DNA from: Sinonovacula constricta
Taxonomy: Eukaryota > Mollusca > Bivalvia > Cardiida > Solecurtidae
Direction: 5' to 3'
Length of the DNA: 64,000 nt
Assembly: GCA_007844125.1 (NCBI GenBank)
Contig: CM017563.1
Location: 26,938,694 to 27,002,693 of the forward strand
Shown here: one piece after another, positions 1 through 56,995 of the stretch
Layout of the letters: the number at the start of each line of letters is the position of its first letter
How positions within the stretch are numbered: position 1 is the stretch's first letter
Program-made: the position numbers and the translations under genes
The notes under the pieces: generated by a model
Seen by the model: only the letters and a program-made list of their open reading frames with translations
Told to the model about the DNA's origin: nothing
Database searches by the model: none

Positions 1-2292
1 ACATTAAGATGCCGCCGACAAGTTTGATTAGGGTGCAGATTGTGTGACTGTCGGTGGAGTGTGTATCACCTACATTAAGATGCCGCCGACAAGTTTGATT
101 AGGGTACAGATAGTGTGGCTGTAGGTGAAGTGTGTATCACCTACATTAAGATGCCGCCGACAAGTTTGATTAGGGTACAGATAGTGTGACTGTCGGTGAA
201 GTGTGTATCACCTACATTAAGATGCCGCCGACAAGTTTGATTAGGGTACAGATTGTGTGACTGTCGGTGAAGTGTGTATCACCTACATTAAGATGCCGCC
301 GACAAGTTTGATTAGGGTACAGATTCTGTGGCTGTCGGTGGAGTGTGTATCACCTACATTAAGATGCCGCCGACAAGTTTGATTAGGGTACAGATAGTGT
401 GGCTGTAGGTGAAGTGTGTATCACCTACATTAAGATGCCGCCGACAAGTTTGATTAGGGTGCAGATAGTGTGACTGTCGGTGAAGTGTGTATCACCTACA
501 TTAAGATGCCGCCGACAAGTTTGATTAGGGTACAGATTGTGTGACTGTCGGTGAAGTGTGTATCACCTACATTAAGATGCCGCCGACAAGTTTGATTAGG
601 GTACAGATTGTGTGGCTGTCGGTGAAGTGTGTATCACCTACATTAAGGTGCCGCCGACAAGTTTGATTAGGGTACAGATTGTGTGGCTGTCGGTGAAGTG
701 TGTATCACCTACATTAAGATGCCGCCGACAAGTTTGATTAGGGTACAGATTGTGTGACTGTCGGTGAAGTGTGTATCACCTACATTAAGATGCCGCCGAC
801 AAGTTTGATTAGGGTACAGATTCTGTGGCTGTCGGTGGAGTGTGTATCACCTACATTAAGATGCCGCCGACAAGTTTGATTAGGGTACAGATAGTGTGGC
901 TGTAGGTGAAGTGTGTATCACCTACATTAAGATGCCGCCGACAAGTTTGATTAGGGTGCAGATAGTGTGACTGTCGGTGAAGTGTGTATCACCTACATTA
1001 AATGCCGCCGACAAGTTTGATTAGGGTACAGATAGTGTGGCTGTCGGTAAAGTGTGTATCACCTACATTAAGATGCCGCCGACAAGTTTGATTAGGGTAC
1101 AGATAGTGTGGCTGTCGGTGAAGTGTGTATCACCTACATTAAGATGCCGCCGACAAGTTTGATTAGGGTACAGATAGTGTGGCTGTAGGTGAAGTGTGTA
1201 TCACCTACATTAAGATGCCGCCGACAAGTTTGATTAGGGTACAGATAGTGTGACTGTCGGTGAAGTGTGTATCACCTACATTAAGATGCCGCCGACAAGT
1301 TTGATTAGGGTACAGATAGTGTGGCTGTCGGTGAAGTGTGTATCACCTACATTAAGATGCCGCCGACAAGTTTGATTAGGGTACAGATAGTGTGACTGTC
1401 GGTGAAGTGTGTATCACCTACATTAAGATGCCGCCGACAAGTTTGATTAGGGTACAGATAGTGTGACTGTCGGTGAAGTGTGTATCACCTACATTTGGAT
1501 GCCGCCGACAAGTTTGATTAGGGTACAGATAGTGTGACTGTCGGTGAAGTGTGTATCACCTACATTAAGATGCCGCCGACAAGTTTGATTAGGGTACAGA
1601 TAGTGTGACTGTCGGTGAAGTGTGTATCACCTACATTAAGATGCCGCCGACAAGTTTGATTAGGGTGCAGATTGTGTGGCTGTCGGTGAAGTGTGTATCA
1701 CCTACATTAAGATGCCGCCGACAAGTTTGATTAGGGTACAGATATTGTGACTGTCGGTGAAGTGTGTATCACCTACATTAAGATGCCGCCGACAAGTTTG
1801 ATTAGGGTACAGATAGTGTGACTGTCGGTGAAGTGTGTATCACCTACATTAAGATGCCGCCGACAGGTTTGATTAGGGTGCAGATTGTTTGACTGTCGGT
1901 GGAGTGTGTATCACCTGCATTGAGATGCCGCCGACAAGTTTGATTAGGGTGCAGATTGTGTGACTGTCGGTGAAGTGTGTATCACCTACATTAAGATGCC
2001 GCCGACAAGTTTGATTAGGGTACAGATAGCGTGGCTGTCGGTGAAGTGTGTATCACCTACATTAAGATGCCGCCGACAAGTTTGATTAGGGTGCAGATTG
2101 TGTGGCTGTCGGTGAAGTGTGTATCACCTACATTAAGATGCCGCCGACAAGTTTGATTAGGGTACAGATAGTGTGGCTGTCGGTGAAGTGTGTATCACCT
2201 ACATTAAGATGCCGCCGACAAGTTTGATTAGGGTGCAGATTGTGTTACTGTCGTTGAAGTGTGTATCACCTACGTTAAGATGCCGCCGACAA
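1..2292. repeat. 71-bp satellite array (about 32 copies)
   Basis: Units beginning acattaagatgccgccgaca recur every 71 bp (starts at 1, 72, 143, 214 and onward) until the array stops at about 2292. Copies differ by a few substitutions (tacagat/tgcagat, gtgtggct/gtgtgact, ctgtcggt/ctgtaggt), and one has a 1-bp deletion near 1001. Diagnostic variants recur 497 bp apart (7 x 71), so amplification was in multi-unit blocks. The array reaches the left edge, so its full length is unknown. It lies just upstream of a receptor exon on the same strand and is inferred to be intronic. Confidence 0.97.
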
Positions 2293-2820
2293 GGACCTAA
2301 TTTGAAAACCGTAGAGTAAATGAACAACTTTAAATAAAGTAGAACCCACAGCAGTTGGCCATTAGTAGAAAGTAATTAAATGTCGTTTAATATTTTCTTT
2401 CGTAATCATTAATTTAACTAACCTCATCCCCACTTTTTCCCGACAATTTTTATGTATGCTTATAAAACTGCTTATATTTAAATACTGATTTACGAACTAT
2501 TAATTAACAACATCCAACTGTAGTCTACTTTGATGAAGTATTGTCTATAAAACAAGAATACAATAATAATAAAAATATGAATATGATTATTATGACGATT
2601 ATGATGATAACGCTGTCAGATAGATAAGCTTTACGGTGATAAACAACTTTCCAAGTGTTTGGATATTTAAGCGCAATATCCGTTCTATTTTATCAAATGT
2701 TAAATTAAATAGAGTCACCTAAACAACTTTTCAACTGCTGTCAACTCATTCAACATTATCGCCGTCAAATGTTAGGAAAAACAACACCACAACTGTCCAA
2801 ATTGTTGTCTCGTCACCCAG
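2293..2820 (+). other. AT-rich intron sequence before the TM6-TM7 exon
   Basis: This is AT-rich unique-looking DNA with short AAT/GAT runs around 2566-2610. I see no additional exon. It ends with a pyrimidine-rich stretch and CAG at 2818-2820, a plausible 3' splice site for the exon starting at 2821. Confidence 0.6.
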
Positions 2821-2983
2821 GGGCAGTATCCGTGCCATGTTCACCCTGATGCCTCTGCTAGGCCTCACATGGATCGTTAGCCTCCTGGTGCCCCTCAGTG
2901 TGGTGTTCCACTACTTGTTCGTCATTATCAACACCGTCCAGGGCATGTGTATCTTCTTCTTGCACTGTATTTGCAATGACGAG
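2821..2983 (+). CDS. Adhesion (family B2) GPCR, TM6-TM7 exon
   Basis: This exon encodes the last two transmembrane helices of an adhesion-type G-protein-coupled receptor. The peptide contains FTLMPLLGLTWIVSLL, the family-B2 TM6 signature, then YLFVIINTVQGMCIFFLHC, the TM7 and QG-x-FIF-x-HC signature. The acceptor is CAG at 2818-2820. The first base completes a codon begun in an upstream exon, and 54 codons follow. The donor is GTAAGC at 2984 directly after a GAG codon (phase 0). Reading through the donor gives a non-family tail, which supports splicing there. The earlier helices and the extracellular/GAIN region are not in the window and must lie upstream of the 71-bp array. The receptor would act in the plasma membrane; ligand and G-protein partner cannot be judged. 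The match excludes a random ORF; the subfamily is not assignable. Confidence 0.88.
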
Positions 2984-3800
2984 GTAAGCGGAACACAGAG
3001 AGTACACAGATGTAACAATCTGCAATATTCAAATACACATATCTTTGATAAATACAAAATTCAAATATTAATTTAATACATTTTGGCATTTTTTCGAAGC
3101 AGACATTTGATCCCGAACCATATTATTAGGTAAGTTCTTTAGAATTAAATAGCGTATATGGAGCGAGCGTTGTTATAACCCATTTTGAAACAAAAACTCG
3201 TTCTGAGATAATTACCTCAAAACATTTTTGTTTGTTCAAAACGAGTTGAAAAGTCCTACCACTTTTAAAATAACCCATTTTGAAATATACTTTTTATAAA
3301 ATGCCTAAAGTCACTTTTGACACATTTGTTGTTGTGGATCATTATGAATATACTTTATACCAAAACTAACTCGGCATGAAAGCTGTAATGGGCTTTTCAA
3401 CAAATAACAAAAATCGACAGAAAATGTATTTTTTCACTTTTTACATGTTGGAAAACAGATATATATGACAAAAACAATCAAAAGAAGCTAGAAATATATA
3501 TTTGAGGGCCTAAAATGGGCTTACCAGCAAATTGCAAAATGGACTGAAAACAACATTGTCCTACTTTTCTTTTCATTTACATATATCTGATTTTCGATAT
3601 GCAAATAGCGAAAATTATATTTTGTGTCGTTTTTACAATATTTTACAGCTAAGATAATAATTTAATGGTTAAGGTGTCCTACCACTATCACTGTGCCGGT
3701 ACCGAATCCACACTTTGACGGTATGAATCCACTTTGCCGGAATCGAATCGAATCTTCTTTTTTTAGAAACTTAGCGATCTAGACTTAACGTCTGCTTTCC
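2984..3800 (+). other. Receptor intron, AT-rich part before the 29-bp array
   Basis: AT-rich intron sequence with no coding signature. Related motifs (aacccattttgaaa, at about 3178 and 3272) recur loosely. A short stretch around 3690-3750 repeats gaatccac/gccggaatcg motifs. Nothing else is recognisable. Confidence 0.55.
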
Positions 3801-6800
3801 ACATGGTTTGTTGTTGCAATTGTCTTGCCATGTGGTGTGTTTTTACAGGGGTCGTGCCATGTGGTGTGCTGTTACAGGGGTCTTGCCATGTGATGTGTTG
3901 TTACAGGGGTCTTGCCATGTGGTGTGCTGTTACAGGGGTCTTACCATGTGGTGTGTTGTTGCAATTGTCTTGCCATGTAGTGTGTTCTTGCAATTGTCTT
4001 GCCATGAGGTGTGTTGTGTGTTGTTGCAATTGTCTTGACATGTGGTGTGTTGTTGCAGGTGTCTTGCCATGTGGTGTGTTGTTGCAAGTGTCTTGCCATG
4101 TGGTGTGTTGTTGCTATTGTCTTGACATGTGGTGTGTTGTTGCAAGTGTCTTGACATGTAGTGTGTTGTTGCAGGTGTCTTGCCATGTGGTGTGTTGTTG
4201 CAAGTGTATTGCTATGTGGTTTGTTGTTGCAATTGTCTTGCCATGTAGTGTGTTGTTGCAATTGTCTTGACATGTGGTGTGTTGTTGCAATTGTCTTGCC
4301 ATGTGGTGTGTTGTTGCAATTGTCTTGACATGTAGTGTGTTGTTGCAAGTGTCTTGACATGTGGTGTGTTGTTGCAATTGTCTTGCCATGTGGTGTGTTG
4401 TTGCAATTGTCTTGCCATGTGTAGTGTTGTTGCAATTGTCTTGCCATGTGGTGTGTTGTTGCAAGTGTCTTGCCATGTGGTGTGTTGTTGCAACTGTCTT
4501 GCCATGTGGTGTGTTGTTGCAAGTGTCTTGCCATGTGGTGTGTTGTTGCAATTGTCTTGCCATGTGTTGTGTTCTTGCAAGTGTCTTGCCATGTGGTGTG
4601 CTGTTGCAAGTGTCTTGCCATGTGGTGTGTTGTTGCAATTGTCTTGCTATGTGGTGTGTTGTTGCAAGTGTCTTGCCATGTGTTGTGTTGTTGCAATTGT
4701 TTTGACATGTGGTGTGTTTTTACCGGGGTCTTGCCGTGTGGTGTGTTGTTACAGGGGTCGTGCCATGTGGTGTGCTGTAAAAGGGGTCTTGCCATGTGAT
4801 GTGTTGTTGCAATTGACTTGCCATGTGGTGTGTTGTTGCAATTGTCTTGACATGTGGTGTGTTGTTGCAGGTGTCTTGCCATGTGGTGTGTTGTTGCAGG
4901 TGTCTTGAGATGTGGTGTGTTGTTGCAGGTGTCTTGAGATGTGGTGTGTTGTTGCAGGTGTCTTGAGATGTGGTGTGTTGTTGCAGGTGTCTTGACATGT
5001 GGTGTGTTGTTGCAGGTGTCTTGACATGTGGTGTGTTGTTGCAAGTGTCTTGACATGTGGTGTGTTGTTGCAAGTGTCTTGACATGTGGTGTGTTGTTGC
5101 AGGTGTCTTGCCATGTGGTGTGTTGTTGCAGGTGTCTTGAGATGTGGTGTGTTGTTGCAGGTGTCTTGAGATGTGGTGTGTTGTTGCAGGTGTCTTGACA
5201 TGTGGTGTGTTGTTGCAGGTGTCTTGACATGTGGTGTGTTGTTGCAAGTGTCTTGACATGTGGTGTGTTGTTGCAATTGTCTTGCCATGTGGTGTGTTGT
5301 TGCAGGTGTCTTGACATGTAGTGTGTTGTTGCAGGTGTCTTGACATGTGGTGTGTTGTTGCAGGTGTCTTGACATGTGGGGTGTTGTTGCAAGTGTCTTG
5401 ACATGTGTTGTGGTGTTGCCAGTGTCTTGACATGTAGTGTGTTGTTGCAGGTGTCTTGACATGTGGGGTGTTGTTGCAGGTGTCTTGACATGTGGTGTGT
5501 TGTTGCAAGTGTCTTGACATGTGGTGTGTTGTTGCAGGTGTCTTGGCATGTGGGGTGTTGTTGCAGGTGTCTTGACATGTGGGGTGTTGTTGCAAGTGTC
5601 TTGACATGTGTTGTGGTGTTGCCAGTGTCTTGCCATGTGGTGTGTTGTTACAGGGGTCTTGACATGTGGTGTGTTGTTGCAATTGTCTTGCCATGTGGTG
5701 TGTTGTTGCAATTGTCTTGCCATGTGGTGTGTTGTTCCAAGTGTCTTGCCATGTGGTGTGTTGTTGCAATTCTCTTGCCATGTGGTGTGTTGTTTCAAGT
5801 GTCTTGCAATGTGGTGTGTTGTTGCAATTGTCTTGCAATGTGGGGTGTTGTTGCAAATGTCTTGACATGTGTTGTGGTGTTGCCAGTGTCTTGACATGTA
5901 GTGTGTTGTTGCAGGTGTCTTGACATGTGGGGTGTTGTTGCAGGTGTCTTGACATGTGGTGTGTTGTTGCAATTGTCTTGACATGTGGTGTGTTGTTGCA
6001 ATTGTCTTGCCATGTGGTGTGTTGGTGCAAGTGTCTTGCCATGTGGTGTGTTGGTGCAAATGTCTTGCCATGTGGTGTGTTGTTGCAAGTGACTTGAGAT
6101 GTGGTGTGCTGTTACAGGGGTCTTGCCATGTGGTGTGTTGTTACAGGGGTCTTGTCATGTGGTGTGTTGTTGCAGGTGTCTTGACATGTAGTGTGTCGTT
6201 ACAGGGGTCTTGTCATGTGGTGTGTCGTTGCAATTGTCTTGCTATGTGGTTTGTTGTTGCAATTGTCTTGACATGTGGTGTGTTGTTGCAATTGTCTTGA
6301 CATGTGGTGTGTGTTTGCAGGTGTCTTGACATGTGGTGTGTGTTTGCAGGTGTTTTGACATGTAGTGTGTTGTTGCAAGTGTCTTGCCATGTGGTGTGTT
6401 GTTGCAAGTGTCTTGCTATGTGGTTTGTTGTTGCAATTGTCTTGACATGTGGTGTGTTGTTGCAGGTGTTTTGTCATGTGGTGTGTTGTTGCAATTGTCT
6501 TGACATGTAGTGTGTTGTTGCAAGTGTCTTGCCATGTGGTGTGTTGTTGCAATTGTCTTGCCATGTGGTGTGTTCTTGCAAGTGTCTTGCCATGTGGTGT
6601 GCTGTTGCAACTGTCTTGCCATGTGGTGTGTTGTTGCAATTGTCTTGCTATGTGGTGTGGTGTTGCCAGTGTCTTGACATGTAGTGTGTTGTTGCAGGTG
6701 TCTTGACATGTAGTGTGTTGTTGCAGGTGTCTTGACATGTGGTGTGTTGTTGCAGGTGTCTTGACATGTGGTGTGTTGTTGCAGTTGTCTTGCCATGTGG

Positions 6801-9800
6801 TGTGTTGTTGCAATTGTCTTGACATGTGGTGTGTTGTTGCAATTGTCTTGCCATGTGGTGTGTTGGTGCAAGTGTCTTGCCATGTGGTGTGTTGGTGCAA
6901 ATGTCTTGCCATGTGGTGTGTTGTTGCAAGTGACTTGAGATGTGGTGTGCTGTTACAGGGGTCTTGCCGTGTGGTGTGTTGTTACAAGTGTCTTGTCATG
7001 TGGTGTGTTGTTGCAGGTGTCTTGACATGTGGTGTGTCGTTGCAATTGTCTTGCCATGTGGTGTGTTGTTGCAAGTGTCTTGACATGTGGTGTGTTGTTG
7101 CAATTGTCTTGACATGTGGTTGTGTTTGCAGGTGTTTTGACATGTGGTGTGTGTTTGCAGGTGTTTTGACATGTAGTGTGTTGTTGCAAGTGTCTTGCCA
7201 TGTGGTGTGTTGTTGCAAGTGTCTTGCTATGTGGTTTGTTGTTGCAATTGTCTTGACATGTGGTGTGTTGTTGCAGGTGTCTTGCCATGTGGTGTGTTGT
7301 TGCAATTGTCTTGACATGTAGTGTGTTGTTGCAAGTGTCTTGCCATGTGGTGTGTTGTTGCAATTGTCTTGCCATGTCGTGTGGTGTTGCAGGTGTCTTG
7401 CCATGTGGTGTGTTGTTGCAATTGTCTTGCCATGTGGTGTGTTCTTGCAAGTGTCTTGCCATGTGGTGTGCTGTTGCAACTGTCTTGCCATGTGGTGTGT
7501 TGTTGCAATTGTCTTGCTATGTGGTGTGTTGTTGCAAGTGTCTTGCCATGTGTTGTGTTGTTGCAATTGTTTTGACATGTGGTGTGTTTTTACCGGGGTC
7601 TTGCCGTGTGGTGTGTTGTTACATGCGTCGTGCCATGTGGTGTGCTGTAAAAGGGGTCTTGCCATGTGATGTGTTGTTGCAATTGACTTGCCATGTAGTG
7701 TGTTGTTGCAATTGTCTTGACATGTAGTGTGTTGTTGCAGGTGTCTTGACATGTGGGGTGTTGTTGCAGGTGTCTTGACATGTGGGGTGTTGTTGCAGGT
7801 GTCTTGACATGTGGTGTGTTGTTGCAAGTGTCTTGACATGTGGTGTGTTGTTGCAATTGTCTTGACATGTGGTGTGTTGTTGCAATTGTCTTGCCATGTG
7901 GTGTGTTGTTGCAAGTGTCTTGCCATGTGGTGTGTTGTTGCAGGTGTCTTGACATGTGGGGTGTTGTTGCAAGTGTCTTGACATGTGTTGTGGTGTTGCC
8001 AGTGTCTTGACATGTAGTGTGTTGTTGCAGGTGTCTTGACATGTGGGGTGTTGTTGCAGGTGTCTTGACATGTGGTGTGTTGTTGCAATTGTCTTGCCAT
8101 GTGGTGTGTTGTTGCAATTGTTTTGACATGTGGTGTGTTGTTGCAATTGTCTTGCCATGTGGTGTGTTGGTGCAAGTGTCTTGCCATGTGGTGTGTTGGT
8201 GCAAATGTCTTGCCATGTGGTGTGTTGTTGCAAGTGACTTGAGATGTGGTGTGCTGTTACAGGGGTCTTGCCATGTGGTGTGTTGTTACAGGGGTCTTGT
8301 CATGTAGTGTGTTGTTGCAGGTGTCTTGACATGTAGTGTGTCGTTGCAATTGTCTTGCCATGTGGTGTGTTGTTGCAAGTGTCTTGACATGTGGTGTGTT
8401 GTTGCAATTGTCTTGACATGTGGTGTGTGTTTGCAGGTGTTTTGACATGTGGTGTGTGTTTGCAGGTGTTTTGACATGTAGTGTGTTGTTGCAAGTGTCT
8501 TGCCATGTGTTGTGTTGTTGCAATTGTCTTGCCATGTGGTGTGTTGTTGCAAGTGTTTTAACATGTGGTGTGTTGTTGCAATTGTCTTGTCATGTGGTTT
8601 GTTGTTGTAATTGTCTTGCCATGTTGTGTGTTGTTGCAATTGTATTGACATGTGGTGTGTTGTTGCAATTGTCTTGCCATGTGGTGTGTTGTTGCAATTG
8701 TCTTGCCATGTGGTGTGTTGTTGCAATCGTCTTGACATGTGGTGTATTGTTGCAGGTGTCTTAACATGTGATGTGTTGTTGCAGGTGTCTTGACATGTGG
8801 TGTGTTGTTGCAAGTGTCTTGACATGTGGTGTGTTGTTGCAATTGTCTTGCCATGTGGTGTGTTGTTGCAAGTGTCTTGCCATGTGGTGTGTTGTTGCAA
8901 TTGTCTTGCCATGTGGTGTGTTGTTGCAATTGTCTTGCCATGTGGTGTGTTGTTGCAGGTGTCTTGCCATGTGGTGTGTTGTTGCAATTGTCTTGCCATG
9001 TGGTGTGTTGTTGCATGTGTCTTGCCATGTGGTGTGTTGTTGCAACTGTCTTGCCATGTGTTGTGTTGTTGCAAGTGTCTTGCCATGTGGTGTGTTGTTG
9101 CAATTGTCTTGACATGTGGTGTGTTGTTGCAGGGGTCTTGCCATGTGGTGTGTTGTTGCAAGTGTCTTGCCATGTGTTGTGTTGTTGCAAGTGTCTTGCC
9201 ATGTGGTGTGTTGTTGCAATTGTCTTGCCATGTGGTGTGTTGTTGCATGTGTCTTGCCATGTGGTGTGTTGTTGCAACTGTCTTGCCATGTGTTGTGTTG
9301 TTGCAAGTGTCTTGCCATGTGGTGTGTTGTTGCAATTGTCTTGCCATGTGGTGTGTTGTTGCAGGTGTCTTGCCATGTGGTGTGTTGTTGCAAGTGTCTT
9401 GCTATGTGGTGTGTTGTTGCAAGTGTCTTGACATGTGGTGTGTTGTTGCAATTGTCTTGACATGTAGTGTGTTGTTGCAAGTGTCTTGACATGTAGTGTG
9501 TTGTTGCAAGTGTCTTGCCATGTGGTGTGTTGTTGCAATTGTCTTGCCATGTGGTGTGGTGTTGCAGGTGTCTTGCCATGTGGTGTGTTGACGCAAGCGT
9601 CTTCACATGTGGTGTGTTGTTGCAATTGTCTTGCCATGTGGTGTGTTGTTGCAATTGTCTTGCCATGTGGTGTGTTGTTGCAATTGTCTTGCTATGTGGT
9701 GTGTTGTTGCAATTGTCTTGCCATATGTTGTGTTGTTGCAATTGTTTTGACATGTGGTGTGTTTTTACAGGGGTCTTGCAATGTGGTGTGTTGTTACAGG

Positions 9801-10370
9801 GGTCGTGCCATGTGGTGTGTTTTTACAGGGGTCTTGCAATGTGGTGTGTTGTTACAGGGGTCGTGCCATGTGGTATGTTTTTACAGGGGTCTTGCAATGT
9901 GGTGTGTTGTTACAGGGGTCGTGCCATGTGGTGTGCTGTTGCAATTGTCTTGCCATGTGGTGTGTTGTTGCAATTGTCTTGCCATGTGGTGTGTTGTTGC
10001 AATTGTCTTGACATAGGGTGTGTTGTTGCAATTGTCTTGACATGTAGTGTGTTGTTGCAATTGTCTTGACATGCGGGGTGTTGTTGCAATTGTCTTGACA
10101 TGTGGTGTGTTGTTGCAATTGTCTTGACATGTGGGGTGTTGTTGCAGGTGTCTTGACATGTGGTGTGTTGTTGCAATTGTCTTGCCATGTGGTGTGTTGT
10201 TGCAATTGTCTTGACATGTGGTGTGTTGTTGCAAGTGTCTTGACATGTGGTGTGTGTTTGCAGGTGTTTTGACTTGTGGTGTGTTGTTGCAAGTGTCTTG
10301 ACATGTGGTTTGTGTTTGCTGGTGTTTTGACTTGTGGTGTGTTGTTGCAAGTGTCTTAACATGTGATGAC
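3801..10370. repeat. 29-bp minisatellite, about 225 copies, inside a receptor intron
   Basis: The unit approximates tgccatgtggtgtgttgttg followed by caattgtct and recurs every 29 bp for about 6.5 kb. Variants are limited: caattg/caagtg/caggtg, gccatg/gacatg/gagatg, and an acaggggtc type. The consensus lacks stop codons in every frame on both strands. Since 29 is not a multiple of three, each frame cycles through all three phases as a 29-residue repeat: Cys/Val-rich on +, Gln/His/Thr-rich on -. The long open frames here (for example 545 codons on - at 3941-5578) follow from this and are not called as genes. Blocks are duplicated at about 2870, 841 and 1304 bp. The array runs to within about 26 bp of the next exon. 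Confidence 0.97.
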
Positions 10371-10396
10371 TACGATATATCTTTACGTGATTTCAG

Positions 10397-10492
10397 ATCC
10401 GGAGGAAGTTCCAGGAAAAACGACGCCGCTGGTCAACCACAAGGACCGGAAGTGACGCTGAGATGAGCAATCCTGGACGCAGGAAACGTGGG
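10397..10492 (+). CDS. Adhesion GPCR, first cytoplasmic-tail exon
   Basis: This is a 96-bp phase-0 exon of 32 codons, between acceptor TTTCAG (ends 10396) and donor GTAGGC (10493). It continues directly from the TM7 exon and encodes a strongly basic juxtamembrane tail starting IRRKFQEKRRRW. That resembles the (V/I)R-basic-W stretch that follows TM7 in adhesion GPCRs. The donor is weaker than consensus. The exon sits about 26 bp after the end of the 29-bp array, so the branch point and polypyrimidine tract must lie in that gap or in the last repeat units. Confidence 0.8.
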
Positions 10493-13400
10493 GTAGGCCT
10501 GACGTAAACGTCTTATCGTGTGCACGGGGGTTCCTCATGATAACACAATAATGGGAAATTATTACCTTATTTATATTGCAGTCTAAACTGTCCACTTCTT
10601 GGAAAGAATTAGAACCAATATAGTAGTTACATGGAACATTGTTAATACTATTGCCATATACTTACGTCATGAACCCATCGCATTTACCACTCCCCACGGA
10701 CGCGAGCCCACTACTGTGTGTTGGTGTCAGTGTGTGCTTGTGTGCATTCCTGTAAGGGGTCTTTATAGTTGTGTTCAACACCAAATACTCCAAACATAAC
10801 ACGACCCGTTTTGGTGAAATATTTATGACATTCTAAAATAAAAGATCAAGTGTTAAAGCTGAACAGTGCTCAGTGAGATGTGAATGTTCTTTCAATACAA
10901 TGAAGGGGAGGAAGGTATTCCTTCAATGCAAAGGTAAAAAGATGTGCTTTGTTTCAAATAAAACGTCTCTTATAGTCCATGGGAGAGATTTTTATACGCT
11001 TGTACATTCCATCTTTGATGATGTCGATGCGAGTTTTAATATCGGAAATGTATAACATTTAATAAACGGAAGAAGGCAAAATGGCTTATACGATTTTAGG
11101 TTCTTGGTTTTATTGTATTGTTAGTAAAAAGCGAATGACATTTTCCCGTAACAGATGTTTTCAATAACAACACACGTTTGATAGTTACAGTATAAGCCAG
11201 CCATTGACGATTTCTTAAATAATGTTGAATTAAAGGCATCGACATGTGTCAAGACGGTATATTTAATATTCAGAGCAGTTTTGCTCATCTTGAACTTTAA
11301 AATTTTAAAAATAAAAAGTATTATTTTAATGGGGATTCGAACCTGCAAAATATTATTTTAAGGAGGAACTAACCAATGGACCAAACTGTAGGTTGTCTTT
11401 TTGTATATTTTAAAAATAAGAGTTTGTGTTACGTAACCGTGCTTTTAGGCAGGTAAGTGTTTGTATACAACGGTCAAATGATAGGTTTTTTTCTTTTTTT
11501 ATAAAGATCTGCTGGATCTGTATGTTATTTTCTGTCCATTTGACAAGAAATAGCATTGTGGTCACGCTGCCGAATTATAAATTCTACTATCGAAATTACA
11601 AACCCGTAACTAGTTTCTTTTTCTTTGTAAATTTTAATACTCTTTAAGTGTGTACCTCTTTAAAAAGAGGGCGCCTGTGACCAAGCGGTTAAAGTCAAAG
11701 ACATCAGTCATCTTCCTACGTCCGTCTGTCTGTGCGTCCATCTTTCCATTAGCTATTTCTTGTGCGGAAATTTAGTTCTTAAGTGCTCACATTTGAATTT
11801 ATTCATTTTTGCATATGTAATTGATATTGATAAGATGTTGCGCATGAATGCGAGCCAGCTCGAATTGAATGGTTCACTGATTGTGCAGAAAAGTTTTCCT
11901 TTATTAATTCTATGTATAATTGATAGTGATAAGTAGATGTGCATGAATTCGAGATAACTCAGATTACATTGTTCGTCCCGGAGAGAGCTGCGTGTGCGTG
12001 CGAGTGTATTTAAACGCAATGTATAATATTCAAGAAGCATTAAACCATAAATGAATGCTAAACAGGCATCAATCATCACCTACATGAAAGGTTTTGACCA
12101 AAGAAATCAATGCTTCAAATATAAACATCTTACAGCCAAGATCCACAACTTTTTAGCATCTTTGAGGGGTCGAAAACCGAATATGCTATACGTACTAGGG
12201 GTTCCTGGGAAATAGCTCCCCGTTAAAAAATGTTTCTAAAATGGCGAAGATGCTTTCTGAAGTGCATCTCGACAAAAAGTTAATAGTTTAATGGTTTTAT
12301 TAAACAGACTTCGAAAGTCTGAGAATTCAAAGACATAACTTTGTTGTTGAAAACTGATATGAATTCTTAAAAAAATTAAATATGCCGAAATAGGCAAACA
12401 CATACTTCTTATAGTTGGAACATATTATGCAGCTAGATTACATTGTAGCTCCATTTTCCCATTGATCGCCCTTTGTATATATTGGGAATAATAATAATAA
12501 TTTCAGTAAATGGTGTGGCAAACAAAAACAATAAAGATTTGCCGCAAATGCTTTCTTAGCTGTTGGACCCGACAACATACAACCATCAGTAATTATTGTT
12601 GAACAAACAAAATATAACTAAGCCTTTTCAACTTTAGATCTTTTCTCTAAACTATACATTGAAGTTTCTTCACATCAACCAAGTAAAGCGTTTGTTATAA
12701 CTTGGACCAAAATATAACATATTGTGCAAACATCGTCAAACTACTGCTTTGTTCAGTTCACTGTTCATTTAGAAAAAATCCTTACTACAATTGCCAAAGC
12801 CTAGTAGAGATGTGTTTAAATGTTTAAACAACAAACAAAAAAGCACAAATTGTTAAGTACTTTTTCTGCACAAGGTGCTTCTTACAGCTGCAAATCACTA
12901 AAGTTAGCAATATATCTTTCCTTTTCTACTTTTTGCAACTTGATACATACTGATATAACCCTGTGTGATTGCTAAAAACGAAGTACGGACAACATCCTCC
13001 CGTATTTTTTTCCAATGCGGATAAATTTTCCACATTCTGTAATAATGTTTATATTGCTCACAAAGTTAAGTCTCGCAAATACACTGATAATGATGTCGGA
13101 CTTTTGTGATAAAATTCCAGCTTCAAGATTTATTTAACTGTAATTGTATGACGGGAGTAATGGGATACATTGGTTAAATGGAAATTGTCTCGCTTGGGAG
13201 TTAATATCCGAGGTATTCCAAACAGTAGTTAGGTCCTTTTAGTTGGAATTCTTTGACTTAATCGCCTGTTCTTTTGTAGAGATTGCAATTACAAACAGTG
13301 ACATTTCTTACTTTTGCATAAATATAAGCTTAAATACATTAAATACTTATAGAGGTTTGTTATTAAAAAAAAAATGAAAATGGAGGTGTTTGTTGATGAT

Positions 13401-14462
13401 GGTTAACCTGAGTGTCACAACAAAGGCTGAAAAATCAACATGCACTCCAAAGAACACAAGCATAAAACCCGAGTTAAACAAATGTAAGGACCTTTTTGCA
13501 TCGACTGTTTTTTTAGGGGAGACTATTCATGAATGTCTCTCATTTTGTTTATTTTTGTTGTTATTTTTTGGTTTTGTCCGCCCATGCTAAAATTAAGGAA
13601 AGCAATTTTGACCGAGAGATATTTTGTCCTACAAATGCTAGAACAATTACCGCTGTTTGTGTTTTTAATTTGCTTGGATATATAATTTAAAATTGCATTT
13701 TTGCTCTAATCCTCGCCAGAATCAATCTCAAAGCTGTGTCCTCAAAATATATTCACTCAAAAATATCATTATTGTAAAACAACAAAATTCTTTTTTTTTG
13801 CATCTTTTAACCATTTGTTTTGGTCTGAAAAAGTTAACTTGAAGTACACGGTAAATCTACAGTGTACGTTGATTGGGATGCAAGGTGACAAACAATAGAA
13901 ATATCTCGGTTAATCACGTTTGCACCACCGCCGAGGAGTGCCGATTAACCTCGTAAGTGGGGACAGAGAACATATCAGCGAATGTTATATACACTGCAGA
14001 TGTTGTGCAGGAGCTAGAACCAATGCCCTTTCGCATCGTGACTCACCCGCGGTAAATTAGAGCAGTCTTACACTGCAGCGTAAGATAAAAAGAGTAGCAG
14101 AAATAATACCTTTATTTGTGAACAAAGGGCACTTAATACAAGGTGAATGCCACAATCTTATTAGTCATTGTGTCGTCTGAAAGAACGAAACTCTTGTCAT
14201 GTATACCGGCATACGGTCGCTCGACGACTGGTTGGACCACCAGACCGAAGTGGCACAATAACAATATGCCATATTCAATCTGGTACATCTGATTTGACAT
14301 AATTAAGCGGGGCACTTTATTATAAGATGAATTTTTGTCATTTGTTGGTATTGTAAAGTAATATAAATCCTCCGATTTGGGACATATATGGCGACGTAGT
14401 AACCCATTGCATGACAAATTGTACAAGCATGTCACACGGCAAGCTGACATACAATAATTATT
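10493..14462 (+). other. Receptor intron, non-repetitive part
   Basis: About 4 kb of AT-rich intron between the tail exon and the 51-bp array. I see no exon with family similarity. A possible SINE head lies near 11668-11700 (a tRNA A-box-like ccaagcggttaaag). Short open frames in this stretch have neither homologous motifs nor splice support. Confidence 0.5.
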
Positions 14463-16745
14463 CAGTAGTTTAGAACAAGTGTGAGTGTGAGGCTATGATG
14501 ACGGTTATCAATGATTCTGATTGACATACAAATATCACCCAGTACCAAACAACACGTGTCAGTGTGCAGTTATCATGACGATTATGAATTATTCTGGTTG
14601 ACAAAAAAAATCATCCAGTAGTTTAGAGCAAGTGTCAATAATTCTGACTGACATACAGTAATCATCCAGTAGTTTAGAGCAAGTGTCAATAATTCTGACT
14701 GACATACAATAATAATCCAGTAGTTTAGAGCAAGTGTCAATAATTCTGACTGACATACAATAATCATCCAATAGTTTAGAACAAGTGTCAATAAATCTGA
14801 CTGACATACAATAATCATCCAGTAGTTTAGAGCAAGTGTCAATAATTCGGATTAACATACAATAAACATCCAGTAGTTTAGAGCAAGTGTCAATAAATCT
14901 GACTGACATACAATAATCATTCAGTAGTTTAGAGCAAGTGTCAATAATTCTGACTGACATACAAAAATCATCCAGTAGTTTAGAGCAAGTGTCAATAATT
15001 CGGATTAACATACAATAAACATCCAGTAGTTTAGAGCAAGTGTCAATAATTCTGACTGACATACAATAATCATCCAGTAGTTTAGAGCAAGTGTCAATAA
15101 TACTGACTGACATACAATAAACATCCAGTAGTTTAGAGCAAGTGTCAATAATTCTGACTGACATACAATAATCATTCAGTAGTTTAGAGCAAGTGTCAAT
15201 AACTCTGACTGACATACAATAATCATCCAGTAGTTTAGAGCAAGTGTCAATAATTCTGACTGACATACAATAATCATCCAGTAGTTAAGAGCAAGTGTCA
15301 ATAATTCTGACTGACATACAATAAACATCCAGTAGTTTAGAGCAAGTGTCAATAATTCTGACTGACATACAATAATCATCCAGTAGTTTAGAGCAAGTGT
15401 CAATAATTCTGACTGACATACAATAAACATCCAGTAGTTTAGAGCAAGTGTCAATAAATCTGACTGACATACAATAATCATCCAGTAGTTTAGAGCAAGT
15501 GTCAATAATTCTGACTGACATACAATAATCATCCAGTAGTTTAGAGCAAGTGTCAATAATTCTGACTGACATACAATAATCATTCAGTAGTTTAGAGCAA
15601 GTGTCAATAATTCTGACTGACATACAAAAATCATCCAGTAGTTTAGAGCAAGTGTCAATAATTCGGATTAACATACAATAAACATCCAGTAGTTTAGAGC
15701 AAGTGTCAATAATTCTGACTGACATACAATAATCATCCAGTAGTTTAGAGCAAGTGTCAATAATACTGACTGACATACAATAAACATCCAGTAGTTTAGA
15801 GCAAGTGTCAATAATTCTGACTGACATACAATAATCATTCAGTAGTTTAGAGCAAGTGTCAATAATTATGACTGACATACAATAATCATCCAGTAGTTTA
15901 GAGCAAGTGTCAATAATTCTGACTGACATACAATAATCATTCAGTAGTTTAGAGCAAGTGTCAATAACTCTGACTGACATACAATAATCATCCAGTAGTT
16001 TAGAGCAAGTGTCAATAATTCTGACTGACATACAATAATCATCCAGTAGTTTAGAGCAAGTGTCAATAATTCTGACTGACATACAATAAACATCCAGTAG
16101 TTTAGAGCAAGTGTCAATAATTCTGACTGACATACAATAATCATCCAGTAGTTTAGAGCAAGTGTCAATAATTCTGACTGACATACAATAAACATCCAGT
16201 AGTTTAGAGCAAGTGTCAATAAATCTGACTGACATACAATAATCATCCAGTAGTTTAGAGCAAGTGTCAATAATTCTGACTGACATACAATAATCATCCA
16301 GTAGTTTAGAGCAAGTGTCAATAATTCTGACTGACATACAATAAACATCCAGTAGTTTAGAGCAAGTGTCAATAAATCTGACTGACATACAATAATCATC
16401 CAGTAGTTTAGAGCAAGTGTCAATAATTCGGATTAACATACAATAAACATCCAGTAGTTTAGAGCAAGTGTCAATAATTCTGAATGACATACAATAATCA
16501 TTCAGTAGTTTAGAGCAAGTGTCAATAATTCGGATTAACATACAATAGTCATCCAGTAGTTTAGAGCAAGTGTAAGTGGAGGTTATCATGACGGTTATTA
16601 AGGAGTCTGTTAGACATAGCATAAACTTCATGTTGTTAAAAGCATGTGTCAATTGGAGGTTAGGATGACAGATATCAATGATTTGTTTAATATACAATAA
16701 TCATCCAGTAGTTTAGAACAAGTGTCAGTATGAGGTTGTGATGAC
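14463..16745. repeat. 51-bp satellite array (about 40 copies) flanked by 77-bp ancestral units
   Basis: The core unit runs cagtagtttagagcaagtgt, caataattctgactgacata, caataatcatc (51 bp), and starts recur at 14667, 14718 and onward. At both edges (14463-14616 and 16554-16745) the unit is about 77 bp because 26 bp (gagtgtgaggctatgatgac plus ggttat) lies between 'caagtgt' and 'caat'. The 51-bp form is therefore most simply an internal-deletion derivative that was then amplified. Fifty-one is 17 x 3, so reading frames persist through the array on the - strand (470 codons at 15285-16697) as a 17-residue repeat. This is not evidence of a gene. Confidence 0.96.
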
Positions 16746-16949
16746 GGTATGATACTGGCATTTATTTATAATATTTGTTTACGTTTAAAATTCAAAATTG
16801 CGTAACAATACTGATTACAATACATATAAATAAATTAAATTGTTTTAAGGATTAACAATATAGATATTTTGGGTACATATGTTCGCATCTTCTGTTATAG
16901 TGGTTGTAGTGCATTAAATATTTTAATATTAAGATCTCGTTATTTTCAG

Positions 16950-17004
16950 AGTTTCGATGCTATTAAAACAACCGTGATGGTCACTCAGCCAGCCGCAGAT
17001 TACG
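16950..17004 (+). CDS. Adhesion GPCR, second cytoplasmic-tail exon
   Basis: This is a 55-bp exon between acceptor TTTTCAG (ends 16949) and a strong donor GTAAGT (17005). Entered in phase 0 it gives SFDAIKTTVMVTQPAADY plus one base of the next codon. It is stop-free in the required frame and joins the terminal exon at 19423 in frame. It has no domain match of its own. The call rests on splice sites, phase continuity and position, and is less secure than the TM exon. Confidence 0.65.
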
Positions 17005-18808
17005 GTAAGTAGATTGACATCACGCAACCACTACTTGTGGATCTATTGTATTGTATCGTATTGCATTACATTTCATTATCCGCATACTTTTTGATCGGAC
17101 AAATACCTCAGAAATGCACGATGTTTTGTCGGTCTATGTGGGGCAGATAACTTTTCGCCTGAAATCGTTATTGAAGCCAGTTATATTAGGATTTAAGTTA
17201 CAGCAAATGTAAGGCTGCACCTTCAATTCAAAAGTATCAAAAGTTAAAATTGCTTCAAAACTGGGCGTTGAGGGTTCGAATCGCGGTATGGGCGCGCATG
17301 ACATTTGTCTGCATCAGTCTACCAGATAAAGAATAAAGCATATGTAGTTTTTCCATTTTTATTTTGTGAATGATTTTTATTGAATGATATGTGCTAAGTT
17401 TGATTAATATTTATCACCTGTTATATTCTAAGTTCAAAAAATTCAGAACAATGTGGCGGAAATATTTTATCTTTTGCAGCATCAGCATCAACTAAAAACC
17501 TTACAAAGCATATCATTTTATTGGCAACTTTAAGTCGTTTGGCTATCAAGAGCTGAGTAATTTTTTAAATAAAGCGCAGTCAGAAGAACAAATGCGAAAA
17601 TTAGCCTAAAACGTGTTGAGTTTGCAAGCAATAAATGTTATATTTGAGATAGTTTAAGTCAAACCAATCAAGTAACATATTTTGTTGGTTTGTCTTATGC
17701 TAAAATTTGTTCCAAAACTATATCCAATAGCAAAACACTTCTCCTAAAGAGTCTATAGCATAATAATTGGAACGTTCTTATTTCTTAAAAGGAGACCCCT
17801 TAAATATCAATGTTATACGAAAAAACATCTATTAGTTCAAAACTGGTTGGAGAATTTTCCTAAAATTCGACATACACGTCAACATTAAAGTATACAACAC
17901 AAAAGATGGGTAAAAGGTGGTATTTGACAGTTTCCCTATATCATATTCCTGTAACAATATCGAACCACTGCTTTGGGGTATTAGGGCATAATTTCTGAAT
18001 AAACTCATACTTTTGTATAAGTAACGACGGGTTTGAACACCGACTGTATTGTTTTCAGCACAAATCGCTATAAAACACTTTAAAGGTTCAGTCATTCGCA
18101 ATCTATCGACAATCACCATAGTGACCTCTGCTTAAAATAGACAACGCAGTCAGAACGAATTACCCGGAGGACAATATAACGTAATCTCAAAAAGGAGTTG
18201 TCAAGTGGTTTTCTTAGTTTAAAAGTAGCTATTCCTGCAGCGTGGCTCACATAGGAAATATCTGCAATGAAGAATATGGATTTATGGTTTAATGCTCAAA
18301 CTGATCTAGGGCATAAATAATCAGCATTTTGCAGGATCGTTTTAGGTAACAATGACTTATTTGGTTATTTGAGAAAAATATTTTGGTGTAAACTATCGGA
18401 TTCCACCTTTAATTTTCAAAATCTGTATATTGTCTATTACATTTGATTTACAGTAACCATTTAAAGGCCAATTTGATTTCTATGGATAATTTTATGGATG
18501 AAAATAGTAGCAGAGGCAATATTCGTTGCTACTAACATAACTCCTGACCATAAAGCGTAAGTTTACATCATTCAATCGTTAAAACCGTGTTCCTGTCTAT
18601 TGTTTACAATATTCCTAATGGAATCAAAGCGCCTATTTTCCCCGCGGCTCAATGACGTGTCAAAATGTCACGTGATTTTCACTTTACAAATAAACAAAAT
18701 GACTGAAACTAGTAACAATTCGGGTAAGGTTTATACTGACAATTCACACACAATCGTCACCGGACGTTCCAAGTACGCTTTGCAAAAATCACGCGGATTC
18801 TAAAACTG
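17005..18808 (+). other. Last receptor intron, 5' part
   Basis: AT-rich intron sequence. A tRNA B-box-like segment (gagggttcgaatcgcggt) at about 17268-17288 suggests a SINE head fragment. Nothing else is supported. Confidence 0.45.
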
Positions 18809-19026
18809 GTATTAAAAGGCTACGCAGCCTTAAAATGAGAAAATGAGAAAAATACAACAACAAAAAACAAAAACAACAAAAACAACAACAACAACACACA
18901 CACACACAAACAAACAAACAACACAAAAAACAACAACAACACAACACAACCTCAACAACAACAACAACAAAAAACAAACTTTTGCACATTTTTTTTTCAT
19001 TTTAAGTCTGCGTAGCCTTTTAATAC
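18809..19026. mobile_element. MITE-like element with ~33-bp terminal inverted repeats and an AAC-rich core
   Basis: The left end (from 18809) reads GTATTAAAAGGCTACGCAGC, then CTTAAAATGA. The right end (18993-19026) is its reverse complement apart from about two differences. The core (18850-18975) is almost entirely CAA/AAC and ACAC simple repeat. There is no coding capacity. The size (about 218 bp) and terminal inverted repeats fit a non-autonomous DNA transposon; the flanking target duplication is not clear. Confidence 0.75.
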
Positions 19027-19109
19027 TTAATTTCATTTTATTTTAATTAAACAGATTATATACTGTTGTCACCGTTTTTTAAATATGGTGAATATCTGGT
19101 TTGGCCTTT

Positions 19110-19360
19110 AACATGAAACCACGCCCAGTGAAATTATCCTGATATCGTGCCAATAAGTTTTATCGTGTTTATGTAACCCTGTGACATGGAACCACGCCCA
19201 TTTACATTGTGCTAACATTTGTCCCATTTCCATCCCCTCGAGCACTAGAACTGTCGCTATTCTTTGTAAATAAGATAACGTAAGGAAGTCAAAGTACTTC
19301 AATACCATTATCAAAGAAAGAGGTTGTTATCGTTCGGCATGGGTTTCAACTCCAGATCTT
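19110..19360 (-). mobile_element. Degenerate SINE related to the one at 45.6-45.9 kb
   Basis: The segment near 19114-19165 (aaccacgcccagtgaaatta, then tcctgat) aligns with the SINE body at 45728-45765 (taccacacccagtcacatta, then tcctgac) in the same orientation. The tRNA-like head would fall near 19340-19360, where B-box-like ttcaactcc occurs. It lies just before the receptor's terminal exon. Confidence 0.45.
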
Positions 19361-19422
19361 CACTGTCTACTCTCTGCCAGGATATGCGTTATTTGGAGCA
19401 CACGTGTTTGTGTTTCAGCCAG

Positions 19423-19526
19423 ACGGAGTGCCTGGAAGTAAGGCTGATGATAAAGGATTTGCGGAGCATCGGATGGTTTACACAGGAAGTTCAACCCCAG
19501 CAGTTCATGACTTGAGCGACACTTAA
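19423..19526 (+). CDS. Adhesion GPCR, terminal coding exon
   Basis: Two bases complete the split codon from the exon ending 17004 (giving Asp). Then 33 codons and TAA follow, with peptide start GVPGSKADDKGFAEHRMVYT and end AVHDLSDT. The acceptor used is CCAG (AG at 19421-19422). A competing AG four bases upstream (19417-19418) would shift the frame to a stop after about seven codons. The peptide is hydrophilic and Ser/Thr/Asp-rich, consistent with a cytoplasmic C-tail. No PDZ-type hydrophobic C-terminus is visible. A polyadenylation hexamer follows about 110 bp after the stop. Confidence 0.65.
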
Positions 19527-42875: not shown

Positions 42876-44027
42876 TTAATAACTCACACACACATTATCA
42901 CTTAATGACCGGGTTCCTGAACGCAGCACAGACAAGCTCAAGGTTGATTTTGTTGTGCCAGGATGTTCAGGGCCTTTTTTAGGGTTCCGGCACCCTTTGC
43001 ACTTGCAGCCGATACATGGAAGTTTCATGCTGTAACAAGCACATCTCTGGCCAAGGCAGGTCAGCTGATTGAAGTTTCCAGATTTACCACACTTGCAGAA
43101 GCTCAAAGGCTTTAACTCTGGTGGTGATAGTTCTTGCTTTTGACGTTTTTTATGAGGTACTGAATTATCAATTTTTTCTAATTCCATAGGTTCTGCATTC
43201 ACCAGCTTACTTATCATTTGTTTTTCTTGATACTGTTTGTCCCTTTTCTGTTTAGAGATATGAATTGCCTTCCTCTTCAGCTTTTTTGTAAACAATACTT
43301 TCTTTGGAGGTGTAATTGACTTATTCAACAAGAGTTTTCTTGATGTACGTTTGATTCTTTTGCCTCGGCCTACTTCATGTTCTGGTAATTTTGACTCTTC
43401 GTTTAACATTTTATTTTGAAGTATTTGACTTGATTTGATTTTCTTCTCCGATTCATGTTTGACTGCATGCATTTGTTCATTTTGTTTTAAATCACTTATA
43501 GATGAACAAGGCTCACTTGGTCCAGCCATAATTTTGGTGTCTATTTCCATTTTTTCATGCTTCAGTTGTGAAGGATTTAATGCTTGGTTGCAATTGGAGA
43601 CATAATCATCATTGAATTCAATGACCTCATTGATTATTCTTAAGATTTCATTTTTTTCACCATTTTGTGTACTGTTTTGAATAGCATCGCCAATTGGAGA
43701 GTTCAAAACACAAACACACAGCTTCTTAAAGCATTGAACTAGAATTTTTATTAATGGGTTGGGCTTAAAATCCCACTGATCTTTACACCAGCTGCAAGAT
43801 GGTTTGAGCTTCATCTTTCCACCTACACATTTGCTACAAATCAGATGCTTACATACATTGTGGGTCGGGCCGATAGGATCATACAACAGATCGAAACAAA
43901 CATAACATGTCAGTGACCGACGTAAACACGGCATGAGTCTATAAAGATCGGCCCAACTCTCTGGGTCTGAGGCATCGGCTTTCATGACACATCGGCATGC
44001 TGACAGATAAAAGTCCATAGCAAACAT
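42876..44027 (-). CDS. MSL2: MSL2-like E3 ubiquitin ligase, intronless coding region
   Basis: This 383-residue protein has both MSL2 hallmarks. Residues 41-81 form the RING finger: Cys41-x2-Cys44, Cys59-x-His61, Cys64-x2-Cys67, Cys78-x2-Cys81, with PSCSWCKD as in other animals' MSL2. Residues 311-346 form the CXC domain with nine cysteines (CKCGK ... LTCLGQRCACYS ... CKGC). Between them is a Lys/Arg-rich low-complexity region (about 220-300) with nuclear-localisation-like clusters. The N-terminal segment LYRLMPCLRRSLTCYVC aligns with the family. In known MSL complexes MSL2 pairs with MSL1, ubiquitinates histone H2B and supports H4K16 acetylation by MOF; its CXC domain binds DNA. An in-frame TAA lies about 33 bases upstream of this ATG. 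The protein is shorter than human (577) and Drosophila (about 770) MSL2, mostly in the linker. Confidence 0.93.
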   Translation of the reverse strand: MFAMDFYLSACRCVMKADASDPESWADLYRLMPCLRRSLTCYVCFDLLYDPIGPTHNVCKHLICSKCVGGKMKLKPSCSWCKDQWDFKPNPLIKILVQCFKKLCVCVLNSPIGDAIQNSTQNGEKNEILRIINEVIEFNDDYVSNCNQALNPSQLKHEKMEIDTKIMAGPSEPCSSISDLKQNEQMHAVKHESEKKIKSSQILQNKMLNEESKLPEHEVGRGKRIKRTSRKLLLNKSITPPKKVLFTKKLKRKAIHISKQKRDKQYQEKQMISKLVNAEPMELEKIDNSVPHKKRQKQELSPPELKPLSFCKCGKSGNFNQLTCLGQRCACYSMKLPCIGCKCKGCRNPKKGPEHPGTTKSTLSLSVLRSGTRSLSDNVCVSY

Positions 44028-44127
44028 TTTTCGAAAGTTAACTCCTGTGTTTCTTTGATTTTAGCGATTTGATGCTTATAACAGATCGCCAAAGTGAAAG
44101 AATTTTATGTGTATGCGTAATTTTGTC

Positions 44128-47934: not shown

Positions 47935-48838
47935 ACACTTTGTAAAGACCATTACATCTCATGTAGAATAAAATCATCTAATGTAGAATAAAGACAGTTT
48001 GTAAGCACCAGCATATCTTATGTAGAATAAAGACACTTTGTAAAGACCATCACACCTCATGTAGAAGAAAGGCGGGTTGTAAGGAGCAGCATAGCTAATA
48101 CAGAATAAAGGCAATTTGTAAGGACAATCTCATCTAGTCCAGAATACAGTCAGCTTGTTGGAACCCGCACATGTAATTCAGAATACAGTCTGTTGAAAAT
48201 ACGAACATATCTAATGTAGAATAAAGTCGGTTTGTAAGGACCATTACATCTAATGTAGAATAAAGTCAGTTTGTAAGGACCATTACATCTAATGCAGAAT
48301 AAAGTCAGTTTGCAAGGACCATTACATCTAATGTAGAATAAAGTCAGTTTGTAAGGACCATTACATCTAATGTAGAATAATGTCAGTTTGTAAGGACCAT
48401 TACATCTAATGTAGAATAAAGTCAGTTTGTAAGGACCATTACATCTAATGTAGAATAAAGTCAGTTTGTAAGGACCATTACATCTAATGTAAAATAAAGT
48501 CAGTTTGTAAGGACCATTACATCTAATGTAAAATAAAGTCAGTTTGTAAGGACCATTACATCTAATGTAAAATAAAGTCAGTTTGTAGGGACCATTACAT
48601 CTAATGTAAAATAAAGTCAGTTTGTAAGGACCATTACATCTTATGTAGAAAAAAGACAGTTTGCAAGGACCGGCACATCTTATATAGAATGAGGTCAGTT
48701 TGTAAGGACCAGCACATCTAATGTAGAATAAGCTCAGATTGTAAGGACCAGCACATCTAATGTAGAATAAGGTCAGTTTGTAAGGACGATCACACTTATT
48801 ACAGAATTAAATCCGTTTGTAAAGACCATCAAATTTAA
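47935..48838. repeat. 39-bp satellite, block A
   Basis: The unit is taaggaccattacatctaat, gtagaataaagtcagtttg (39 bp). The first units are diverged and the middle ones nearly identical. The array breaks off inside a unit at 'catcaaatttaata', the same position as a diverged unit at the end of block B (about 55970). Confidence 0.95.
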
Positions 48839-56700: not shown

Positions 56701-56995
56701 GACCAGCACATCTAATGCAGAATAAGGTCAGTTTGTGAGGATCATCATACTCAACAAAGAACAAAGCCAGTTGGTAAGGAGCAGCACATTTAATAGCGAA
56801 TATTGTCAGATTGTAAGGACCATCGTATCTAATGTAGAATAAGGACAATTTGTAAGGACAATCATATCTAACGCAGAATAAAGTCAGTTTGTAAGGACCA
56901 GCACTTCTTATGCAGAATAAAGCCTGTTGAAAAGTTACCATCACATCTTATGTAGAATTACGTCAGTTTGTAAGGACGATCACACCTAGTGTAGT
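53766..56995. repeat. 39-bp satellite, block B (about 82 copies)
   Basis: Same unit as block A and, in its first ~300 bp, the same ordered series of diverged units (ctcatgtagaa, ggcgggttgtaaggagcagc, cagcttgttggaaccc). The array then runs much longer, mixing 'ccattacatct', 'ccagcacatct', 'gaagaataatg' and 'gcagaataatg' variants. Thirty-nine is 13 x 3, so - strand frames such as 55403-55831 stay open as 13-residue repeats without being genes. Confidence 0.95.

Follow-up and report, generated by a model that had tools for sequence, protein, structure and literature searches.

Minisatellite arrays in introns and downstream DNA of a predicted ADGRD1-like adhesion receptor gene of Sinonovacula constricta

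The receptor gene and its introns

The DNA analysed here (the window) is a stretch of 64,000 nucleotides from the bivalve Sinonovacula constricta, covering positions 26938694–27002693 of contig CM017563.1 (C9) in a 1.22-Gb genome assembly of 177 contigs. By homology, exons in its first part were identified as the 3′ end of a gene for an ADGRD1-like adhesion G protein-coupled receptor (GPCR), the introns of which contain long tandem arrays of short, mostly unrelated units (minisatellites). A single assembly was used, and the gene structure was inferred via homology. The analysis was extended by 110 kb upstream (loci L023, L022, L021, L020 and L009–L015, in this order) and by 40 kb downstream (L016–L019). 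Negative numbers are window coordinates extended upstream, so that the genome position equals 26938693 plus the coordinate. On the 62-Mb contig the locus is at 27 Mb, away from both ends.

The exons located with most confidence are listed below from the GPCR proteolysis site (GPS) through the transmembrane helices (TM) and intracellular loop 3 (ICL3) to the C-terminal tail, preceded by one exon placed by eye. All are on the plus strand.

About −58.1 kb, plus strand: pre-GPS exon, placed by eye from reading frames
−40046 to −39932, plus strand: GPS exon, tblastn of bivalve relatives against the region
−37360 to −37257, plus strand: TM1 exon, tblastn of bivalve relatives
−32735 to −32633, plus strand: TM2 exon, tblastn of bivalve relatives
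−28049 to −27823, plus strand: TM3-4 exon, tblastn of bivalve relatives
−24890 to −24824, plus strand: TM5 exon, tblastn of bivalve relatives
−21988 to −21903, plus strand: ICL3 exon, tblastn of bivalve relatives
2821 to 2983, plus strand: TM6-TM7 coding exon, AG/GT borders, Pfam, solved adhesion GPCRs and orthologue alignment
10397 to 10492, plus strand: tail1 coding exon (helix 8 and the beginning of the C-tail), orthologue alignment
16950 to 17004, plus strand: tail2 coding exon, AG/GT borders, orthologue alignment and open joined frame
19419 to 19441, plus strand: last coding part, ending YARRSAWK with a stop, orthologue tails

The first three exons in the window were shown to have AG/GT borders and phases that are compatible when joined. 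The joined in-window piece matched Pfam 7tm_2 (PF00002; E 1.9e-4, 21.2 bits, cut-off 20.6), the 7TM domain of the secretin/adhesion class. Among solved adhesion GPCRs ADGRD1 was its nearest relative (E 1.7e-14), in an alignment that spans the first junction. Ahead of TM1, the GPS exon encodes a motif (WSSDGC...CSCNHLTNFAILVIY) that aligned to orthologues bearing PF01825; the protein thus has the GPS of an adhesion GPCR, with cleavage only predicted. A protein search with the receptor exons gave 266 matches at E ≤ 0.001, and the top three of the best 120 were from Mya arenaria, Ruditapes philippinarum and Dreissena polymorpha. From the GPS to the tail, the composite protein (345 amino acids, aa) showed 70% identity to both Mya and Ruditapes, without internal gaps, 69% to Dreissena and 60% to Sinanodonta, and the tail1 exon showed 73–79% identity to the three orthologues, gap-free against Mya and Ruditapes. 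From the GPS exon through the last exon all borders were GT-AG, and the reading frame was open throughout from TM5 to the stop when the exons were joined. Weaker tblastn matches to extracellular pieces were found at about −75.6, −72.0 and −59.4 kb.

The original prediction, made from the window alone, had four exons joining in phase, and this held for the first three. The last one (19423–19526) was rejected in favour of an acceptor 4 nt upstream, at 19419, with a stop at 19441, on comparison with the orthologue tails. In local comparisons of the last piece alone, Ruditapes (YASRPAWS) was clear, with a score of 29 for the 19419 frame against 9 (15 for the whole earlier tail); Mya (7 against 7, or 8 for the whole earlier tail) and Dreissena (11 against 9, or 13) were undecided. 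Global scores of the corrected and earlier tails were 79/23, 55/17 and 26/−3, gaps that stem partly from the extra length of the earlier tail, and across 178 proteins compared the best scores were 65 and 37, respectively. Of the 11 best-ranked relatives with ends inspected, seven terminate in AW followed by one or two residues, as in the YARRSAWK tail; Mya and two other relatives had no AW ending, and Dreissena ends in VVWS. This ending is a short conserved C-terminal motif, found in the 19419–19441 tail and in proteins P0060, P0063–P0065 and P0067–P0069 of our comparison.

Tandem repeats were annotated with Tandem Repeats Finder (TRF). In the following list, interval shares count arrays with a period of at least 10.

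Pre-GPS to GPS interval: 93% array, 19-bp unit, about 16 kb
GPS-TM1 interval: 0% array
TM1-TM2 interval: 71% array, 58-bp unit
TM2-TM3 interval: 77% array, 74-bp unit
TM4-TM5 interval: 84% array, 30- to 32-bp units
TM5-ICL3 interval: 73% array, 31-bp unit
ICL3-TM6 interval, 23.7 kb: 96% array, 41-, 50- and 71-bp units
TM7-tail1 interval: 89% array, 29-bp unit
tail1-tail2 interval: 33% array, 51-bp unit
Last intron: 5% array, ACA repeat
1 to 2293 in the window and upstream to about −11621, plus strand: 71-bp minisatellite, ICL3-to-TM6 intron, 96% matches in the window
3804 to 10365, plus strand: 29-bp minisatellite, TM7-to-tail1 intron, 6,562 bp, 226 copies
14587 to 16573, plus strand: 51-bp minisatellite, tail1-to-tail2 intron, 39 copies
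14440 to 16740, plus strand: the 51-bp array with decayed 77-bp relatives of its unit at the edges, right edge by eye
18854 to 18979, plus strand: ACA-rich repeat of 126 bp, with no other tandem repeat detected in the last intron

Arrays were thus found in eight of the ten introns between the pre-GPS exon and the last one (33–96% each), seven of them consecutive, and span about 1.7 to 16 kb. The GPS-TM1 intron and the last intron contained no minisatellite, apart from the 126-bp ACA repeat in the latter. The three intervals between located 5′ exons were 0, 3 and 0% array, although further exons may be missing there. The 71-, 29- and 51-bp arrays were present as previously described from the window. 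That description had counted three array-filled introns, which is too few, and its 71-bp array was incomplete, being cut by the window edge (TRF span −11621 to 2293, which includes an embedded 50-bp array). The window edge had therefore hidden most of the case.

The 29-bp array ends 31 bp before the tail1 exon. Its last unit before the tail1 acceptor (10355–10396) contains CTTAAC about 37 nt from the AG, a sequence that occurs elsewhere in the array only at 8760 and that we take, by its consensus, to be branch-point-like; the array may be the source of the tail1 branch point. An open frame of 568 aa on the minus strand (window 3941–5647) consists of 29-bp array throughout and is predicted by the stop-free unit; it is not considered a gene.

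Array density along the region and relatedness of the units

Array density was determined in 2-kb tiles, with 50 random 2-kb stretches, a small sample, as genome control. The 29 tiles between the GPS and the last exon had a mean of 75% and the eight in the intron preceding the GPS 97.5%, compared with only 1% between −110 and −58 kb, a region of about 52 kb that contains the located 5′ exons and the DNA beyond (25 tiles). Past the gene, the rest of the window had a mean of 36% (22 tiles) and the DNA further downstream 21% (19 tiles). Among the random stretches 15 contained arrays and 35 none, with more than half array in three; in the first 40, 2,168 of 80,000 bases were N. The window as a whole is 44% array, and the suggestion that the arrays are mere window background was ruled out by the genome means (7.5% for n = 40, 9.1% for n = 50). 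Introns of other adhesion GPCR genes resemble the genome average, with arrays in three of eight 1-kb tiles (0, 0, 36, 0, 0, 22, 27 and 0%). The locus is an outlier compared to the genome sample.

Since the arrays extend beyond the 3′ end of the gene, the island that they form is regional. The nearly array-free 5′ part and the array-bearing downstream DNA show that the proneness is a property neither of the whole gene nor of introns as such. The locus-specific proneness suggested earlier is supported by a density about eight times that of the genome sample, but not in the form of such a property. At 10 to 20 kb from three array-rich random spots, arrays were present in 1/4, 1/4 and 2/2 tiles, which indicates that other dense regions exist in the genome. 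Near 35.67–35.69 Mb of contig C11, three tiles (L072, L052 and L073) had 67, 33 and 100% array over 20 kb, possibly a second minisatellite island.

A pericentromeric or heterochromatic satellite domain that covers half a gene by chance would agree with arrays that go on downstream and with a position far from the contig ends. The island consists, however, of many small unrelated units, not of the one abundant monomer in very long arrays that defines a classical satellite, and its 5′ side is almost without arrays; such a domain is considered improbable.

Comparison of 14 unit sequences showed a clear relation only between 50a and 50b. The 71-, 29- and 51-bp units were unrelated, as originally noted, apart from a marginal 29/51 score (18; highest shuffle value 15) in a set of 182 comparisons. 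Internal matches were lowest in the 41-bp array (71%) and highest in the window part of the 71-bp array (96%), which points to differences in age or homogenisation among the arrays. When three 51-bp units were searched against the genome, 20 matches were obtained, every one inside the 51-bp array; the 51-bp stretch is thus likely to be rare in the genome, although this is unproven since the search ignores very common words. The lack of relation between units, their unequal internal matches and the single place matched by the 51-bp stretch support the earlier proposal of separate array births. Hairpin-prone units as a shared cause were rejected, as only two of 11 units, 58 (z −2.0) and 50b (z −2.9), folded clearly beyond shuffles. 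Pairing of arrays between introns (exon looping, circular RNA) was likewise not convincing, the lowest z being −2.6 among 55 pairs.

Pearl elements are mobile elements that carry tandem repeats. Arrays carried in by such elements, of the Helentron type, would account for a single 39-bp family, unlike the intronic units, that was found at several places in and past the window (47955–48829, 53807–59458, 62834–64000 and on to about 68.2 kb, and 76.5–77.3 kb). Helentron-borne arrays are reported for the oyster Crassostrea gigas (PMC7492417). Import is very unlikely for the intronic arrays, considering that the 51-bp stretch was matched at one place within the limits of that search, that the 74-bp unit resembles the adjoining exon and that the 31-bp array sits on the adjoining donor (see below).

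Array units at splice junctions

The 74-bp unit was found to resemble the start of the TM3-4 exon, over its first 38 bases. Compared with the exon alone the array scored 41, a value reached by 0/200 shuffles (maximum 33), and this pair ranked first of 90 array-exon pairs (z 10.2), a comparison that left out the 19-bp array and represented long arrays in part. The match spans the TM3 acceptor, with agreement in 24/29 coding bases. The exon is taken as the ancestral side because conservation of the TM3-4 protein sequence extends to four other bivalves. AG at the place of the acceptor was present in 0/49 copies (48 array units and a lone copy) and close by in 2/49. Selected loss of AG in these decoys was rejected as an explanation, as one founder mutation accounts equally well for 0/49.

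An assembly error that misplaced or inflated the arrays deserves mention because long arrays are difficult to assemble. The exons between the arrays are nevertheless ordered, on the same strand and in phase, and one array is similar to its adjoining exon, so that such an error is extremely unlikely.

The 31-bp array begins within the TM5 exon, of which it takes in the final two bases, and continues through the donor GTAATG. Among its 67 units, the first of which is the real donor, GT was kept in 59 and GTAATG in 48, and a simple consensus count gave 6 of 9 for the real donor and the decoy alike. In silico use of decoys 1 to 6 gave an early stop every time, and the frame of the array itself reaches a stop at codon 20. 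These observations, together with an array in human ABCA7 that is reported to affect splicing (PMC5954066), would suit splice-junction arrays that act as a length-tunable brake on the full-length receptor: decoy donors past TM5 would compete for U1, and each decoy use would insert at least 31 nt and end the protein before a correct TM6. The donor columns of the unit were, however, conserved no better than the remaining columns, as expected without selection, and we regard a brake of this kind as unlikely. It is rather improbable that the 58 decoy donors form a working length-tunable rheostat in which transcripts are truncated and decay, output tracks array length, and maintenance of the island is due to this function.

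For the 58-, 32-, 29-, 51- and 19-bp arrays no exon origin was found in comparisons with neighbouring exons, and none of the three window arrays (71, 29 and 51 bp) showed a clear one.

Origin and possible consequences of the arrays

The locus is probably best explained as a regional island of separately born minisatellites that are tolerated in introns and include decoy splice sites. The island would start in the intron before the GPS exon and continue beyond the 3′ end of the gene, in a region prone to tandem duplication. Each array would have been born separately by tandem duplication of local sequence and have grown by slippage or unequal exchange. Intronic growth would be tolerated, presumably neutrally, provided that a functional donor and acceptor persist. 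A splice junction appears to have been captured twice, the TM3 acceptor region with the first coding bases in the 74-bp array and the TM5 donor, as putative founder, in the 31-bp array. Normal splicing would persist through the outermost TM5 donor and the TM3 acceptor copy that keeps AG, and correct but perhaps leaky splicing is predicted.

Several results weigh against this explanation. The genome sample holds other dense spots, and the 29- and 51-bp arrays of the window have no demonstrable exon origin. A score of 77 for the 74-bp array with 60-bp flanks takes in the lone array copy in the flank. The TM5 exon alone scored 13 against the 31-bp array, which is no match, only two exon bases being shared; the high scores with flank (75, and 44 at second rank among the 90 pairs) stem from an intron flank that is already array, and thus show position, not descent from coding sequence. 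Pairs that are not neighbours ranked third and fourth (41-bp/TM1, z 4.9; 71-bp/TM5, z 4.1), and the 32-bp/tail1 pair reached z 3.6, so that either chance attains such values or further origins were missed.

Among known cases, two are closest. The 25-bp variable number tandem repeat in intron 18 of human ABCA7, born at a donor, shows single-unit retention, which is itself independent of length, and skipping of exon 19 that rises with length (PMC5954066). It shares with the TM5 array a start at the exon, a donor inside the first unit and a frame shift on retention of one unit; as noted above for the clam gene in silico, retention of one to six units leads to a premature stop. ABCA7 has a single array with measured length polymorphism, whereas the clam array, known from sequence alone, has 67 units of 31 bp and is one of eight array introns. 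Human TERT contains several different minisatellites within introns of one gene (intron 2 with units of 42 and 61 bp, intron 6 with 38 and 36 bp, and intron 12 with 28 bp; PMC2915984), as does the clam gene, which differs in having seven consecutive array introns, eight of ten in its 3′ half, at 33–96% array. In human segmental duplications, tandem repeats at exon-intron borders alter splicing or introns (PMC2812944), but these have a mean of four 30-bp units in recent paralogues, whereas in the clam the units number in the tens and the receptor is conserved among bivalves. CeRep25B of C. elegans, an intronic minisatellite near alternative exons (PMC4039745), adjoins splicing decisions like the clam arrays, but is one dispersed family and not a set of unrelated local units. 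Among the papers listed in searches on bivalve or mollusc minisatellites and on satellites at or from exons, no title or abstract beginning mentioned this combination, although its absence from print is unproven.

Other features were detected in the region. An uninterrupted frame of 394 aa on the minus strand (window 42876–44060) is similar to the E3 ligase MSL2, with matches to Pfam zf-RING_10 (E 1.4e-22) and MSL2-CXC. Its best named relatives are from Mactra antiquata (45%), Mya arenaria (47%) and Dreissena (42%), and a protein database fragment (P0004) is 100% identical over 72% of it. A Tc1/mariner-type transposase in two reading frames lies at 60231–61444 (Transposase_1 and DDE_3 matches), and pieces similar to the reverse transcriptase of long interspersed nuclear elements (RVT_1 below cut-off) lie on the minus strand at 49569–53064, between two 39-bp arrays. 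A frame starting RKxDTNSSYASERGSNHPRFGFRL at 47513 is repeated at 53372. On the array-poor 5′ side, repeated frames at about 1206 and 6474 of L021, with a spacing of about 5,268 bp, point to a tandem duplication. An Rfam scan and a tRNA scan gave no matches.

For the earlier idea that the arrays alter length, splicing or chromatin, the only pointers are the splice-site copies upstream of the window, which may suggest such a role. By analogy with the unit retention and length-linked exon skipping of the donor-born ABCA7 array, an effect on splicing is plausible in the clam gene as well. One conserved gene with eight array-bearing introns offers a natural test of splicing in such genes, and the two arrays whose unit ties to a splice junction give a pointer to the founding site. 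At TM5, one true donor is set against 58 GT-keeping copies: exclusive splicing from the first donor would speak for early co-transcriptional commitment, whereas a ladder of 31-nt inserts would not.

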